Positions 34,665-41,532 of a DNA stretch of 64,000 bases are shown in pieces (within the stretch, counting starts at the first letter, position 1; each line of letters opens with the position of its first letter). The translations under genes and the position numbers were made by a program. The notes beneath the pieces were generated by a model that had not been told where the DNA came from, ran no database searches, and was given only the letters and a program-made list of their open reading frames with translations. The DNA is taken from the NCBI GenBank assembly GCA_030681835.1, contig JAUXRN010000193.1:1-64000 (forward strand). The letters are read 5' to 3'. The stretch is from Actinomycetota bacterium (lineage in GTDB: Bacteria > Actinomycetota > Actinomycetes > S36-B12).

Positions 34665-35429
34665 GTGCCCGACTCCGACCCGCTGGCCGTGCTGGCGGCG
34701 CGCCCCGAGGTGGCGGCCGCGTCCGCGGCGGCCAGGGCCGAGGTCGACGCGCTGCTCTGGCGACGGGATGTGCGTGCGGCCGCGGCGGAAGTGGCGGTCG
34801 CGTCCGTCGACCGTGGTGGCCGCGACTCCGCCGCGATCGACGGGGCCGATGTCGTCGAACCAGACGACTCCCCGATGGGTCGCGTCCTGGGAGCGGCGCT
34901 GCGCCTGACGGCCGAGGTCCCGCGCCACGTGGACGTCTTCGCCACGGCGCCTCTGCAGGCGCTTGCCCACCTGCATGCGGTCGTGGCCCACGGCTTCCTG
35001 CCGGCCGACGAGCTGGGCCGGCCGCGGGCAGGGATGCAGGCCGACGACCCGCTGCACTTGGGCCCGCCGCCGTCCGCCACGGCCGCCGCCGAGCGGCTGA
35101 TGGCGCTCGCGCAGGTGCTGACCCGTCCGACCGAGGCGCCCGCGACGGTGGTGGCCGCGGTGGCCCACGCCGAGCTGGCGTCGGCCCGGCCGTTCGCCTG
35201 GGGCTCGGGACTGCTCGGCCGTGCTTCGACGCGGCTGGTGCTGGCCGGCCGGGGCGTGGACCCGAGCCTGTTCAGCATCCCCGAGCACGGGATGCTCGAA
35301 CAGGGCCGTCCGGCGTACGTATCCGCGCTGCGCGGCTACGCGACCGGGACGCCCGACGGGGTGTCGGCCTTCCTGGTCTGGCACGCCACGGCTGTGGCGC
35401 TCGGCGCGCGGGCGGCCACGGTCCCGTAG
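34665..35429 (+). CDS. conserved actinobacterial protein of unknown function
   Basis: Complete GTG-initiated ORF next to acs with TACCGT-N6-GTG promoter/start. Confidence 0.75.
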   Translation: MPDSDPLAVLAARPEVAAASAAARAEVDALLWRRDVRAAAAEVAVASVDRGGRDSAAIDGADVVEPDDSPMGRVLGAALRLTAEVPRHVDVFATAPLQALAHLHAVVAHGFLPADELGRPRAGMQADDPLHLGPPPSATAAAERLMALAQVLTRPTEAPATVVAAVAHAELASARPFAWGSGLLGRASTRLVLAGRGVDPSLFSIPEHGMLEQGRPAYVSALRGYATGTPDGVSAFLVWHATAVALGARAATVP

Positions 35430-35445: not shown

Positions 35446-35507
35446 CCGCCGAGACCAGCACCTGGCGTCGGTCCCGCGCACCCGGAACGACTCCAACTGC
35501 TGGTGTC
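35446..35507. repeat. left 62-bp inverted repeat flanking AbiEi/DUF559-like gene
   Basis: Ungapped reverse-complement alignment with 36495..36556: 50/62 identical; no match outside either boundary. Confidence 0.88.
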
Positions 35508-35582
35508 GATCCGGATGGCCCTGCGTCCACAGGGGCGACGTTGGGGCTCGCTGGCCTCGCCGACATGACCGAGGGTGCCGCC

Positions 35583-36509
35583 ATGCCGCGGTACGCCGAC
35601 CCCGATCCGGTCCGAACGCCCCTCCTGATCACCCGGGAATGGGCGCTCGCATCCGGGCTGACGAGGGACCAGATCCGGCAGCGGGTCAGGTCTGGCCGCT
35701 GGGAGGTCGTGGCCCGCGGGATGTACCGGCGCAGCCAGTGGCGGGAGTCGTGCGGGCTGGACGAGCATGCGCTGGCCCGCATCGAGCACGTGCACAAGGT
35801 GGCAGCCGCGGCTCACCGCAACCCGGAGTGTGTCGTCGGCTTCGATAGCGCTGCGTTGCTGCACGGGCTCCCTGTGGCATCGGGGATCCCTCCGTCAGTC
35901 ACGCTCATCGCGCCCGACGGCGCGTGGACGGGTCGACGGCCCGGGATCGTGATGCGGCGGCTCACACTCGGCATGGACGATGTCCTAGAGGGTCCACCTC
36001 GAGTCACCACCCCGGAACGGACCTGGCTCGACCTCGCTCGCGTGAGCCCCCTGGGCGTGGGCCTGGCCGCCGTGGACGCGGGCTTGCGCGATGGCATCCT
36101 CGACGGCAACGCAATGGTGGCCAGGCTCACCGCGCTCGGGACTGCCCGTGGCTGCCGGAAGGCCGCCGAGGCATTGCTGCACGCGAGCCTCCTGCGGGAA
36201 AGCGTCCTGGAGTCGTTGTCGTGGGCGTACTTCGTCGAGCGCAGCGTGCAGCTCCCCGAGATGCAAGTGAAGGTCCGGGACCAGGCGGGTCGGTTCGTCG
36301 CCCGCGTCGACTTCCTCTGGCGGGCGAGACGACTCGTGGGGGAATGCGACGGGCGGATGAAGTACCTATCGGCCGACGATCTCTACCGGGAGAAGCGACG
36401 CGAGGACGCCCTGCGCGCGCTGGGATTCGGCGTCGTTAGGTGGGGGCTGGGCGACCTCGGCACCGGCACCCTGGCGAGCCGCCTTCCCCGCGCTGACACC
36501 AGTGGGTGA
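35583..36509 (+). CDS. AbiEi-like N-terminal domain plus DUF559/Vsr-like nuclease-like domain protein
   Basis: ITREWALASGLTRDQIRQRVRSGRWEVVARGMYRR; C-terminal VDFLWRARRLVGECDGRMKY...RREDALRALGFGVVRW. Confidence 0.8.
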   Translation: MPRYADPDPVRTPLLITREWALASGLTRDQIRQRVRSGRWEVVARGMYRRSQWRESCGLDEHALARIEHVHKVAAAAHRNPECVVGFDSAALLHGLPVASGIPPSVTLIAPDGAWTGRRPGIVMRRLTLGMDDVLEGPPRVTTPERTWLDLARVSPLGVGLAAVDAGLRDGILDGNAMVARLTALGTARGCRKAAEALLHASLLRESVLESLSWAYFVERSVQLPEMQVKVRDQAGRFVARVDFLWRARRLVGECDGRMKYLSADDLYREKRREDALRALGFGVVRWGLGDLGTGTLASRLPRADTSG

Positions 36510-36556
36510 CGTCAATCCCGGTCCTCGGGAGCGACGCCAGGTGCTGGTGTCGGCGG
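36495..36556. repeat. right 62-bp inverted repeat flanking AbiEi/DUF559-like gene
   Basis: Reverse complement of 35446..35507 at 50/62; contains the last codons and stop of the 35583 gene. Confidence 0.88.
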
Positions 36557-36562
36557 CGAAGG

Positions 36563-37390
36563 TCAGGTGCGGGCGCCGCGGCGGCGCGCGTACCAGGTCA
36601 AGCCAAGCGCGACGGCGCCGATCGCCACCGCGCTGCCGGCCGCGACAGCTTGTCGACGATCGGCCTGCGCCTTCATCGCCGTCGGCTTGGCGAAGTCCAT
36701 GATCGGCCAGTGCCGTTCGGTTGCGATGCGCCGCAACTCGGAATCGGGGTTGACGGCCACCGGATGACCGACCACCTCGAGCATCGGCAGGTCGGTGTGC
36801 GAGTCGCTGTACGAGTAGGACGCGGCGAGGTCGTACCCGCGCTCCTCGGCCAGCGAGCGCATGGCCTCGGCCTTGCCCTCCCCGTAGGCGTAGAACAGGA
36901 TCTCGCCCGTGTACTGGCCGTCCTCGACGGCCACCTGCGTGCCGATGGCCAGGTCAGCCCCGAGCCTGGCCCCGATCGGCTCGACGATCTCGGTCCCGGA
37001 TGACGAGATGATGATGACGTCCCGGCCGGCAGCCTGGTGGGACCGCATGAGCTCGACGGCCTCCTCGAAGACGATCGGGTCGACGATGTCGTCCAGGGTC
37101 TCCCCGACAATCGCCTGGACCTGGTCGACGTTCCAGCCGTTCACCAGCTCAGACATGTACACGCGCATGGATTCCATCTGGTCGTGGTCCGCCCCCGACA
37201 TGAGGTAGACGAACTGCGCGTAGGCGCTGCGGATCACGTCACTGCGCCCGATGAGCCCCTCCTTGTAGAAGGACTTGGCGAACACGAACGAGCTCGACTT
37301 GGCCAGGATCGTCTTGTCGAGATCGAAGAACGCGGCCGCGCGCCCGTCGCTCTCCGGGTGCCCTTCGTTCGCCTGGCCCGCGTCGTTCAC
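36563..37390 (-). CDS. HAD-IB family (SerB-like) hydrolase
   Basis: AAFFDLDKTILAKSSSFVFAKSFYKEGL; DVIIISSSGTEIV; YSYSDSHTDLPMLE. Confidence 0.92.
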   Translation of the reverse strand: MNDAGQANEGHPESDGRAAAFFDLDKTILAKSSSFVFAKSFYKEGLIGRSDVIRSAYAQFVYLMSGADHDQMESMRVYMSELVNGWNVDQVQAIVGETLDDIVDPIVFEEAVELMRSHQAAGRDVIIISSSGTEIVEPIGARLGADLAIGTQVAVEDGQYTGEILFYAYGEGKAEAMRSLAEERGYDLAASYSYSDSHTDLPMLEVVGHPVAVNPDSELRRIATERHWPIMDFAKPTAMKAQADRRQAVAAGSAVAIGAVALGLTWYARRRGART

Positions 37391-37550
37391 ATGGACACGG
37401 TAACCGGCCGAGGTGACCGCATCGGGAAGCCGCGTCGGCATTCGCCATCCACAACGCAGCTCCCGGCGCACTGTCCACAGGAGTGCCGTGCACGGTTCCG
37501 CGGCAGGTAGCCCCACGCGACGCTGGGCCTCACCCTCATGTGGAGCGACG

Positions 37551-38591
37551 ATGAACCGTCCCTTGCTGATCAGCGACGACACCGACCTGGTCGACGACGT
37601 CCTGCGCCTGTCCTCGGCGCACGGGGTCGACCTGCACCTCGCACCCGACCCGGAGTCCGCCCGGGCCAGGTGGCCTGGGGCGCCGATGGTCCTCGTGGGG
37701 GCCGACGCGGCGGATGCCGTGGTGGCGGCGCGGCTGGCCCGCCGGCGCGACGTCGTCCTGGTCACGCGCGGCGCGTCCGAGCAGGCCTGGCGTGATGCCG
37801 TGGCCCTGGGCGCCGAGCACGTGGCAGCGCTCCCGGAGGCAGAGCGTTGGCTGATCGACCGGCTGGCCGACTGCGACGAGGGGCCGCCCCGGGCCGGCCG
37901 CATCGTCGCCGTGCTCGGCAGCGGTGGAGGGGCAGGGGCGTCCACCTTCGCCGGGACACTCGGGGTCGTCGCCGCGTCCCGCGGTCTGCGCAGCCTGCTG
38001 GTCGACGCCGATCCGACGGCCGGCGGACTCGATGTCCTCCTGGGCATCGAGGACGTGCCGGGCATCCGATGGCCCGACCTGCTGGAGTCCCGTGGCCGCA
38101 TCGGGGCCGAGGCGCTTCGAGACGCCCTGCCGCAATGCCAGGGTGCGTCCGTGCTGTCCTGGGGCCGGCAGGGGCCGGCCAGCATGCCGGCCGCGTCAAT
38201 CGACGCCGTGCTCGACGCCGGGTCCCGGGGATTCGACCTCGTCGTTGTCGACCTTGTCCGCCAGATCGACCCCACGGCCGAGTCGGTGCTGGCCCGAGCC
38301 CACGAGGCGGTCATCGTCGCGTCAGGTCACGTGCGCTCGCTGGCCGCGGCCGCCCGGCTGGCGGCGCTGGTCGGAGACCGGGCGGCATCGACGTCGGTCA
38401 TCCTGCGCGGCGATGGCCGCCTCGACGACGCCATCCTCGGGGCGCTGGGAGCCCCTGTCCTGGCGCGCCTGCCCGGGCGACCGCGCGCTGCCGCCCACGC
38501 GGATGAGGGCGAGCCGCCGTCGGTGCGCGACGCCTACGCCAAGGCCTGCCTGGCGGTACTGCGCGCCCTGGCGCGGGAGGAGGCGGCATGA
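37551..38591 (+). CDS. Ssd/CpaE-like MinD-family protein
   Basis: IVAVLGSGGGAGASTFAGTLGVVAASRGLRSLLVDADPTAGGLDVLLG; first gene of tad cluster. Confidence 0.85.
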   Translation: MNRPLLISDDTDLVDDVLRLSSAHGVDLHLAPDPESARARWPGAPMVLVGADAADAVVAARLARRRDVVLVTRGASEQAWRDAVALGAEHVAALPEAERWLIDRLADCDEGPPRAGRIVAVLGSGGGAGASTFAGTLGVVAASRGLRSLLVDADPTAGGLDVLLGIEDVPGIRWPDLLESRGRIGAEALRDALPQCQGASVLSWGRQGPASMPAASIDAVLDAGSRGFDLVVVDLVRQIDPTAESVLARAHEAVIVASGHVRSLAAAARLAALVGDRAASTSVILRGDGRLDDAILGALGAPVLARLPGRPRAAAHADEGEPPSVRDAYAKACLAVLRALAREEAA

Positions 38592-39736
38592 CCACGGCCC
38601 TCGTCGACCGGGTGCGGTCGCGGCTCGTCGCGCAGCGGGCGGACGCCACCCCGGGCCTCGTCGCCGCCGCCCTGCGCGCCGAGGGATTGGTCCTCGGTGA
38701 CGATGCCGTCCTGTCCCTCGTGCGTGAGCTGCGGGACGACCTGGTGGGTGCCGGCCCACTCGAGCCGCTGCTGCGCGACGCAGCCGTCACCGACATCCTC
38801 GTGAACGGGGCCAGTGACGTGTGGGTGGACCGGGGCCAGGGGCTGGAGCGTTCGGGCATCCGGTTCCCGGGGGAGACCGACGTGCAGCGGCTGGCCCAAC
38901 GACTCGCTGCGCAGGTCGGCCGAAGGCTCGACCAGGCCAGCCCGTTCGTCGACGCCCGCCTGCCAAGCGGCGCGCGCCTGCACTGCGTCCTGCCGCCGAT
39001 TGCCGTGGCGGGGACGACGATCTCGCTGCGCGTGCCACGCCGGCTGGCCTTCTCCATCGACGACCTCATTCACTGCGGCACGCTCGACGAGCAGGGGGCC
39101 ACCGTCCTGCGCGCGATCGTCGCGGCCCGGCTCGGCTTCCTCATCTCGGGCGGTACCGGCACGGGCAAGACGACCGTCCTGTCGACGATGCTCGGCCTCG
39201 TCCCCGGCGACGAGCGGATCGTCATCGTCGAGGACTCCACGGAACTGATGCCCTGCCATGCGCACGCGGTGTCGCTGCAGTCACGGCTGCCGAACCTGGA
39301 GGGAGCGGGCACCGTCACCCTGCGCGACCTCGTCCGACAGGCACTGCGCATGCGCCCCGACCGTGTCGTGGTCGGGGAGGTTCGCGGTGCCGAGGTGGTC
39401 GACCTGCTCACCGCGATGAACACCGGCCACGAAGGCGGGTGCGGCACGGTGCACGCCAACTCGGCCGAGGACGTGCCCGCACGGCTCGAGGCCCTGGGAC
39501 TGATGGCGGGACTCGACCGGCTGGCCGTGCACGCCCTGGTTGCGGCCGGCGTCGACGCTGTCGTGCACCTGGACCGCCCGGGCGGTGCGACGCGCCGGCT
39601 GGCTTCCGTCCACGTGCTCGAGCGCGGTGCCCAGGGACTGGTCCGCTGCGTTCCGGCACTCGTCCGTGCCGGTGACCGACTGGCCCGAGGGCACGGGCAT
39701 GACCGGCTTGCCCAGCGCTTAGGCGCTCCGCCGTGA
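38588..39736 (+). CDS. TadA/CpaF-family secretion ATPase
   Basis: ISGGTGTGKTTVLSTMLGLV; VIVEDSTELMP; GEVRGAEVVDLLTAMNTGHEGGCGTVHANS. Confidence 0.96.
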   Translation: MTTALVDRVRSRLVAQRADATPGLVAAALRAEGLVLGDDAVLSLVRELRDDLVGAGPLEPLLRDAAVTDILVNGASDVWVDRGQGLERSGIRFPGETDVQRLAQRLAAQVGRRLDQASPFVDARLPSGARLHCVLPPIAVAGTTISLRVPRRLAFSIDDLIHCGTLDEQGATVLRAIVAARLGFLISGGTGTGKTTVLSTMLGLVPGDERIVIVEDSTELMPCHAHAVSLQSRLPNLEGAGTVTLRDLVRQALRMRPDRVVVGEVRGAEVVDLLTAMNTGHEGGCGTVHANSAEDVPARLEALGLMAGLDRLAVHALVAAGVDAVVHLDRPGGATRRLASVHVLERGAQGLVRCVPALVRAGDRLARGHGHDRLAQRLGAPP

Positions 39737-39746
39737 GGTCCCGGCC

Positions 39747-40445
39747 GTGATGCTGCTGGCGGGCTGCCTCCTCGTCGGACTTGCCGCGTGGCTCGCCGTG
39801 CCCCCGGCGGCCGCGGCGCGGCGCGCACGTGTCCTGTCCGTGCCGTCGAAGCCAGCGCGCCGGCACCGAGACCGCGTGCCGCGCGCGCTTCGGGTTGGCC
39901 CGGCCTCCCGTCGGCGGTCCGCGCGCGACCGAGCCAGGACGCTCCAGGCCCTCGGCGCCCTGGCCGCGGAGCTGGCCAGCGGGCAGCCGCCCTCGGCAGC
40001 GCTGGCCGCAGCGGCGGGGGAGCCGGCCGTCTGGCCGGCGGCGCTGGGGGCGTCGGCCTCGGGGCTCGACGTGGCCGCTGCCCTGCGCGAGGACAGCGCG
40101 GCCCGGCCGCCGCTCGCCTACCTCGCTGCGTGCTGGGAAGTGGCCGCCAGTACGGGCATCGGACTTGCCGTGGCGGTCGAGCGTCTCGCCGCGGCGACGC
40201 GCGCAGCGGAGGAGGTGCGCGTCGAGCTCGAGGGACAGCTGGCCGGCCCGCGTTCGACGGCGCGCATGCTGGGGCTGTTGCCCGCCGTCGGCTTGGGGCT
40301 GGGCACCATGCTCGGGGCCGACGCCGTGGGCTGGCTGCTCGGCACCCCTGCGGGCTGGGCCTGCCTCGTGAGCGGCATCGCCCTGACGGTGCTGGGCCAG
40401 GCCTGGACCGGTCGCATCGCCGCCTCGGTCGAGCGGCTGCTGTGA
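39747..40445 (+). CDS. type II secretion system F-family protein (TadB-like)
   Basis: Position after TadA; TM segments and T2SSF-like region ACWEVAASTGIGLAVAVERLAAATRAAEEVRVELEGQLAGPRSTA. Confidence 0.85.
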   Translation: MMLLAGCLLVGLAAWLAVPPAAAARRARVLSVPSKPARRHRDRVPRALRVGPASRRRSARDRARTLQALGALAAELASGQPPSAALAAAAGEPAVWPAALGASASGLDVAAALREDSAARPPLAYLAACWEVAASTGIGLAVAVERLAAATRAAEEVRVELEGQLAGPRSTARMLGLLPAVGLGLGTMLGADAVGWLLGTPAGWACLVSGIALTVLGQAWTGRIAASVERLL

Positions 40446-41167
40446 TCCTGCTCGGTGCTGTCCTCGTCGGCGTCGCCGTCGCCCTGGCGTTCCCCGTGGC
40501 CTCGGGATCTCGGCTGGCGGTCATGTTCCCGGGGACGCAGCCAGCGCGGCCGGCCCGACGCCTCTCGCGGCCGGCGCTGGCGCGCCTGTCGGCAGCAGTG
40601 GCCGCCATCAGCGCCTTCCTGCTGCTCGGCGGACATGTCGGCATCGCTGCGGCCCTTGCCCTGTGGCTCGGGGTGCCGCGGCTGGCTGGCCGACTGGAGA
40701 GCCGGGCCAGTCGCGACCGCAAGGCCCGCCTCCTCGCGCAGGCACCGGTGCTGGCCGACCTGCTGGCGGCGACCCTGGCCAGCGGGGCCGCCGTCGACGC
40801 TGCGGTCGGCGCGGTCGCGGGGGCGGTGGGCGAGCCGGCCGCCGGCGCCCTGCGCCCAGTGACCGGGGCCTTGGCCCTCGGCGCCGACCCAGTCCGCGCG
40901 TGGTCAAGCCTCGCCGGGGACCCGGCTCTAGGCGCGGTCGCCGATGCCTTCGCGAGGTCGGCCGCAAGCGGCGCATCGCTCGCGTCCGTCCTTGCCCGGG
41001 TTGCCGACGACGCGCGCCGCGAGCATGCGGCGGCCGTGGAGGTAGCGGCACGATCGGCCGGCGTGCGGGCCGTGCTGCCGCTTGCGGCGTGCTTCCTGCC
41101 GGCCTTCCTGCTGCTCGGGGTCGTCCCGGTGGTGGCGGCACTCGCCACCGGCACCCTCACCGGATGA
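40442..41167 (+). CDS. type II secretion system F-family protein (TadC-like)
   Basis: Overlaps TadB stop; ADAFARSAASGASLASVLARVADDARREHAAAVEVAARSAGVRAVLPLAACFLPAFLLLGVVPVV. Confidence 0.85.
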   Translation: MILLGAVLVGVAVALAFPVASGSRLAVMFPGTQPARPARRLSRPALARLSAAVAAISAFLLLGGHVGIAAALALWLGVPRLAGRLESRASRDRKARLLAQAPVLADLLAATLASGAAVDAAVGAVAGAVGEPAAGALRPVTGALALGADPVRAWSSLAGDPALGAVADAFARSAASGASLASVLARVADDARREHAAAVEVAARSAGVRAVLPLAACFLPAFLLLGVVPVVAALATGTLTG

Positions 41168-41331
41168 CTGTTGCGGCGGCTTCCACAGCCCACGGTCCGA
41201 CGGCCCCGCGCCCCCAGCCGCTCGACGGCCGCTGCCCCGATCGGCGCAGCAGCGCGACAGTCGCCGCACGGCGCTCGCGCCGGTGCCGAAGGTCGGCACG
41301 ACCGCCGCGGCGGTCCACGAGAGGGGACACC

Positions 41332-41532
41332 ATGGGCAAGGAACTCGCGAAGCGTCAGGCGCTGGCGCGTCTGGCGAAGAAGGACGACGGGCTGTCGACG
41401 GCGGAGTACGCCGTGGGCACCGTCGCGGTGGCGGGGCTCGGCGGCCTGCTGATCAAGCTGCTCACCAGCCCCGAGGTCCGCGACCTCATCTGGAGCGTGC
41501 TGAGCAAGGCCTTCGCCGGCATGTTCGGATAG
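41332..41532 (+). CDS. DUF4244-like Flp-type prepilin
   Basis: DDG-LSTAEYAVGTVAVAGLGG: Gly-1, Glu+5, Tyr+6. Confidence 0.85.
   Translation: MGKELAKRQALARLAKKDDGLSTAEYAVGTVAVAGLGGLLIKLLTSPEVRDLIWSVLSKAFAGMFG

Follow-up and report, generated by a model that had tools for sequence, protein, structure and literature searches.

The 64-kb stretch of DNA analysed here (contig JAUXRN010000193.1, referred to as the window; coordinates without prefix refer to it) contains a single nuclease gene enclosed by two long palindromic repeats, an arrangement which recurs across the Actinomycetota. Homologues of this nuclease, in which an AbiEi-antitoxin-like DNA-binding region is fused to a nuclease domain, are commonly bracketed by palindromes belonging to the respective nuclease lineage, and it is virtually certain that both this association and the cognate pairing are real. 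We lean towards regarding these genes as a hitherto undescribed class of prokaryotic mobile-repeat systems across the phylum, i.e. fusions of AbiEi and a homing-type nuclease which each recognise and spread private palindromes. They would represent a convergent, non-HUH counterpart of RAYT enzymes and their repetitive extragenic palindromes (REPs), with specificity residing in the AbiEi half.

A scan of 85,462 species genomes yielded 80 homologous nuclease loci across Actinomycetota, and each was assessed for a matching repeat (local score of at least 20) within 350 bp upstream and downstream of the gene. Both sides carried matching repeats in 45 of the 80 loci versus 0.24% of 3723 equally spaced window pairs from the same loci, corresponding to an approximately 200-fold excess over background, while the same test gave 0/28 for the neighbouring gene of a HAD-family hydrolase. 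Hence, the REP-like hairpins which the original prediction had noticed around the nuclease gene without any visible transposase are a systematic feature. Palindromes detected by the covariance model (CM) built from copies of this genome also border homologous nucleases from other genera that are about 50% identical (genomes G022 and G033), and direct inspection revealed long palindromes of other sequence beside nearly all close homologues. Relatives carrying the nuclease gene without these repeats at its borders had been listed as speaking against the prediction; the relatives do have repeats there, though of their own sequence. These palindromes measure about 54-65 nt and are typically located 60-140 bp before the start codon and around the stop codon, from about 30 bp ahead of it to 30 bp past it. 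In 46 loci, the two flanking copies match in direct orientation 29 times and in inverted orientation 17 times.

The palindromes are, moreover, specific for their nuclease. In a comparison of 45 loci, no palindrome was shared by any of the 959 nuclease pairs with less than 50% identity, as opposed to 67% sharing among the 9 pairs with more than 80%. As nearly all nuclease pairs are distant, the rank correlation across all of them is only weak (0.10, Mantel p 0.04). Paralogues within one genome carry unrelated palindromes (L111, L113 and L114; L112 and L115), and L112 and L114, which are 96% identical and originate from two genomes, have theirs in common. Likewise, the flanking palindromes of the orthologous nuclease differ between species and usually agree within one species, with the exception of G005, where two different palindrome types occur at the nuclease gene. 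A CGTC/GACG core positioned 9-11 nt from the palindrome centre is present in 15 of 18 palindromes from the genus and family, and the outer arms differ. At loci L113 and L115 (G060 and G059), flanks are 88-90% identical, but palindromes and the N-terminal half of the nuclease have diverged, the nonsynonymous divergence (dN) being 0.39 in the N-terminal versus 0.08 in the C-terminal half. This one case hints that the AbiEi half sets palindrome specificity. A diverged AbiEi half beside a conserved nuclease half might reflect module exchange.

In the window, an inverted pair of 62-nt repeats had been predicted at 35446-35507 and 36495-36556, and a repeat search returned exactly this pair as the top inverted pair of the region (81% complementary, 987 nt apart). 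It also scores as a direct repeat (71%), because either copy on its own forms a long, imperfect palindrome (fold z-scores -2.9 to -5.7), so that the pair matches in both orientations. Based on a nearly gap-free alignment of 14 copies, the natural unit was refined to 65 nt, in which a variable centre of 17 nt separates two conserved arms of 24 nt. Only one convincing coding gene is located between the palindromes, as predicted, and its stop codon falls inside the left arm of the right palindrome. The elements are:

35447..35511, no strand: left palindrome, 65 nt, 17 nt past the stop codon of a Fic-like gene; CM score 66.7 bits
36491..36555, no strand: right palindrome, 65 nt, where the nuclease and HAD genes meet with their 3' ends; CM score 72.8 bits
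35583..36509, + strand: nuclease gene, 308 aa, with an AbiEi-antitoxin-like DNA-binding region followed by a C-terminal PD-(D/E)XK domain (DUF559/MTES_1575, Vsr/EDxHD-like)
35628..36161, + strand: AbiEi-like region, residues 16-193; PADLOC AbiEi match with E 3.7e-13 over residues 16-194, Foldseek matches 6y8q and 1zel with probability 1.0
36198..36464, + strand: nuclease domain, residues 206-294, from homologue alignments; Foldseek match 3r3p with probability 0.97

The predicted AbiEi/DUF559 type of this protein was borne out by PADLOC and Foldseek as well as by Pfam, whose matches to AbiEi_4 (E 2.7e-5) and DUF559/MTES_1575 (E ~1e-3) both lie below the curated cut-offs. In an AlphaFold2 model based on 24 homologues (confidence score pLDDT 92), the N-terminal two thirds match AbiEi (6y8q) and Rv2827c (1zel). 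For the C-terminal part, matches were obtained to the catalytic domain of I-Bth0305I, a homing endonuclease (3r3p; TM score 0.64 by target length, with a weak E-value of 0.18), and to the endonuclease-like structure 3hrl. Residues E210, D243, E254-x-D256 and K260 are invariant in the homologue alignments, and the gene is, judged by dN/dS ratios (about 0.2 for two pairs, 0.28 for another), under purifying selection. AbiEi and Rv2827c each bind paired 23-bp inverted repeats spaced by 3 or 13 bp, without cross-binding, and these lie upstream of their own genes, which are thereby autoregulated (PMC7319586). The two 24-nt arms around a 17-nt centre correspond in geometry to such repeats and represent the likely binding site, and the AbiEi-like region is predicted to bind the palindrome arms. 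That the nuclease protein recognises its own palindrome is highly probable. No AbiEii toxin gene is found beside the nuclease gene at this locus, its neighbours being the Fic-like and HAD genes.

A lack of further repeat copies had been listed as speaking against the prediction. In this genome (3.27 Mb in 269 contigs), about 30 palindrome places were detected by the CM, 27 of them with E<1e-5; the 14 copies from which the CM was built match by construction. All 22 solo copies examined are situated outside genes, 20 of them at most 20 nt away from a gene 3' end, and 11 are located between convergent genes compared with one between divergent genes, based on approximate gene calls from third-position GC content. 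Other close palindrome pairs in this genome (contigs C48 and C24) bracket apparently ordinary genes instead of nucleases; hence, the palindromes are not exclusive to nuclease borders. The arms are conserved in sequence and not in pairing alone. As the palindrome alignment displays no covariation beyond shuffled alignments and no Rfam match was obtained, structural conservation at the RNA level was rejected.

Solo copies are not limited to this genome. When 14 concatenated palindromes were used as query against 19 genomes, solo copies of the resident nuclease's palindrome were found on other contigs in most of them, with about 20 each in G059 and G060, more than 25 in G066, about 8 in G012 and few in G061, G062 and G065; none were found in G003 and G007 using this query. 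In G066, a metagenome-assembled genome of the Microbacteriaceae (L169; e.g. contigs C110 and C196), the cognate palindromes are clustered at a spacing of about 150-200 bp, unlike the single copies elsewhere. A stretch of about 200 bp recurs near palindromes at different loci of G059 and G060 (L293, L300, L310), as if some copies belonged to a longer repeat.

The genes on either side of the unit allow its location to be followed through evolution:

34665..35429, + strand: Fic-like neighbour, landmark outside the unit (PF02661, E 0.0022, below cut-off), beside the HAD gene in many relatives
36563..37390, - strand: HAD-family hydrolase neighbour, landmark outside the unit, whose orthologue L250 matches PF12710 (E 9.6e-34); present in 32 of 36 relatives

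The HAD gene is convergent with both the Fic-like and the nuclease gene, and a convergent arrangement of neighbouring Fic-like and HAD genes is shared by many family members and by some members of the order. Within this genus, the nuclease gene is situated between them in G000, G001, G006, G008, G010, G011 and G012, and it adjoins the HAD gene in G002 and G005, where the Fic gene lies beyond or outside the locus. In G012, the nuclease gene is inverted with palindromes still on both sides. The empty sites proposed as a check by the original prediction do exist in other genera, where G015, G016 and G020 display the junction without gene and without palindrome. In congener G003, however, one palindrome is present without the nuclease gene, a configuration that the prediction had listed as speaking against it; a lone palindrome is compatible with loss of the gene by recombination between the repeats. 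Overall, this distribution fits a gain of the nuclease in this genus followed by its loss through recombination between the flanking repeats in G003 and by inversion between them in G012. The junction pattern does not show in which way the gene arrived at these sites.

As an explanation for these observations, we consider it fairly probable that the locus constitutes a cognate palindrome-nuclease system which works like a REPtron while employing a non-homologous enzyme. REPtrons comprise a mostly single-copy HUH enzyme lacking evidence of mobility, with repeats nearby and genome-wide (PMC8266576). The system would consist of two parts, namely a nuclease gene on the chromosome and ~55-65-nt palindromes forming a family private to it, two copies of which bracket the gene. 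Its N-terminal AbiEi-like module would bind both ~24-nt arms of the cognate palindrome, so that two C-terminal Vsr/EDxHD-type nuclease domains would come to lie above the variable 17-nt centre and introduce a nick or cut there. Repair of the break could then copy palindromes to new intergenic sites and keep the family homogeneous, and occasionally move, flip or delete the complete palindrome-nuclease-palindrome unit. Binding, cutting and copying or mobilisation by the nuclease are inferred, as is the spread of the palindromes, which is deduced from their dispersal and family structure; that the nuclease promotes their spread or homogenisation appears rather more probable than the opposite.

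Several observations weigh against this explanation. No matching repeat pair was found for 35 of the 80 nuclease homologues, Gordonia amarae (G064) shows the flanking palindrome pair only, and three incomplete genomes hold palindromes without a close nuclease. The nuclease gene keeps one locus in most of the genus and hence, occurring at the same Fic/HAD junction, looks to be inherited mostly vertically. Furthermore, most solo copies are common to both members of the close genome pairs compared, so palindrome movement is rare or old. This genome and G002, its closest relative (~95% identical), have nearly every examined copy in common, which renders this particular comparison uninformative regarding insertions. 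Only a single clean empty site was found, as solo copy L300:9923-9979 is missing in L321; the inserted stretch amounts to about 77 nt with a candidate 8-bp direct repeat (TCGCGCGG). Target duplications, for which the flanks of all copies were to be aligned according to the original prediction, are not in excess over shuffled flanks overall.

Other readings of the same data have to be considered. The palindromes could serve as operators, with the AbiEi-like domain acting as repressor, the upstream copy mediating autoregulation, the scattered copies forming a regulon and the nuclease domain acting on another target. Both AbiEi and Rv2827c do autoregulate through paired upstream 23-bp repeats (PMC7319586), and the upstream palindrome precedes the start codon by ~60-140 bp in most loci, but a second palindrome follows past the stop codon in the same loci and a repressor would be of little use at the gene 3' ends favoured by solo copies; this reading is unlikely. 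Position at gene ends and strong hairpins would also agree with ordinary gene-end hairpins, i.e. terminators or RNA stabilisers that some unknown mechanism has amplified, among which the nuclease is located by chance. Such gene-end positions had initially suggested chance terminators as the whole explanation, which was dropped after the flank survey and the HAD control. Ordinary hairpins, however, would hardly form a separate family for every nuclease, without relation even among paralogues of the same genome, nor flank the gene on both sides ~200 times above background, with arms conserved beyond pairing and devoid of a covariation signal, and we judge this explanation distinctly improbable.

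A classical transposon or miniature inverted-repeat transposable element (MITE) family, moved in trans by an unseen transposase with the nuclease as cargo, would account for related repeats bounding the unit, and solo copies could then be MITE-like. The mixed orientation of the flanking copies and the missing excess of target duplications speak against this, the repeat tracks the nuclease lineage, and no transposase is visible inside the 1111-bp unit. Additionally, HUH Y1 transposase genes (RAYT type, PF01797) are absent from the palindrome-bearing relatives G000-G013, G017, G022 and G033 while control genomes were positive, other transposase families not having been searched. RAYT as hidden mobiliser was hence rejected, and the transposon reading retains only a very slight probability. 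The repeats are not simple transposon ends, and the simple mobile 1111-bp unit with inverted ends envisaged by the original prediction could not be upheld, given the orientations found, the constant junction through the genus and solo palindromes as the abundant form. Alternatively, in a defence or self-marking function, the nuclease would attack DNA depending on palindrome presence or absence, with genomic copies marking self or being tolerated. This is suggested by the AbiEi homology including the PADLOC match and by the nuclease domain, but the Fic-like and HAD neighbours in place of AbiEii, the lack of any phage match and only two weak plasmid matches do not favour it, marking would leave the gene-end dispersal unexplained, and we regard it as quite doubtful. 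The same phage and plasmid results led to rejection of a phage or plasmid origin.

The favoured palindrome-nuclease system resembles several known systems, none of which is represented here with all its defining features. Like a REP/RAYT (TnpA-REP) REPtron, it has a chromosomal enzyme gene that is mostly present in single copy, appears to be inherited vertically and is bordered by its own palindromes, with cognate palindromes dispersed at intergenic sites genome-wide. In contrast to REPtrons, the enzyme is an AbiEi-PD-(D/E)XK fusion in relatives without HUH Y1, the palindromes are longer (54-65 nt) and a GTAG foot tag is lacking; among 18 palindromes, GTAG/CTAC occurs only in G007, G009 and G012b, inside an arm. 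REPs tagged with CGTC, which 'apparently lack a dedicated transposase' (PMC3733652), are likewise short dispersed palindromes with a conserved CGTC and no RAYT partner. Their CGTC, however, remains unpaired as a tag terminating one side of small hairpins and occurs mainly in Proteobacteria, whereas CGTC here lies within the stem, 9-11 nt from the centre, in Actinomycetota; a link between the two is a lead only. The AbiE type IV toxin-antitoxin system (AbiEi/Rv2827c) shares the fold of the N-terminal two thirds and paired 23-24-nt inverted repeats as likely binding site, but at this locus its AbiEii partner is missing, the AbiEi-like region is fused to a nuclease, and the repeats are dispersed and located on both sides of the gene. 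I-Bth0305I, an EDxHD/Vsr-like homing endonuclease, matches in the C-terminal nuclease fold (3r3p, probability 0.97 with E-value 0.18), yet the gene here is outside any intron or intein and has whole palindromes on both sides instead of an interrupted site with half-sites. Terminal-inverted-repeat transposons, finally, differ in having consistently inverted ends.

Dispersed palindromes are common in bacterial genomes, and RAYT is the one enzyme family tied to them in the literature searched, some repeat families being reported without any dedicated enzyme. That a flanking-repeat system around DUF559 proteins could go unnoticed, as had been suspected, agrees with the finding that no paper connecting palindromic repeats with DUF559 or AbiEi-nuclease proteins was retrieved from the open-access literature, with subscription papers and most preprints outside this search; novelty is therefore provisional. 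If true, an unrelated nuclease with cognate palindromes across a phylum would imply that such systems arose more than once and would provide a role for some of the many DUF559/AbiEi-nuclease genes that lack an assigned function. It would also afford many natural protein-DNA pairs for testing the evolution of specificity.

Some further observations concern sequences next to palindromes or to the locus. In G002 (contig C23, L219:8968-9459 versus L031 here), a palindrome and a tRNA-like gene enclose a stretch of about 540 bp with an HNH-endonuclease-like open reading frame (ORF) of 163 aa. This stretch is absent from this genome, has a short repeat at both borders and may be another mobile nuclease. 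A stretch of about 3.7 kb (L307:6251-9928 on G059:C23, compared with L289 of G060) adjoins a solo palindrome in one genome only and contains two large ORFs, which by eye appear calcium-binding-repeat-like and DUF1254-like. In the window itself, the region downstream of the HAD gene (37413-41532) harbours, judging by eye from translations, a tad/Flp pilus-like cluster with CpaE-, CpaF-, TadB/TadC- and Flp-like products.
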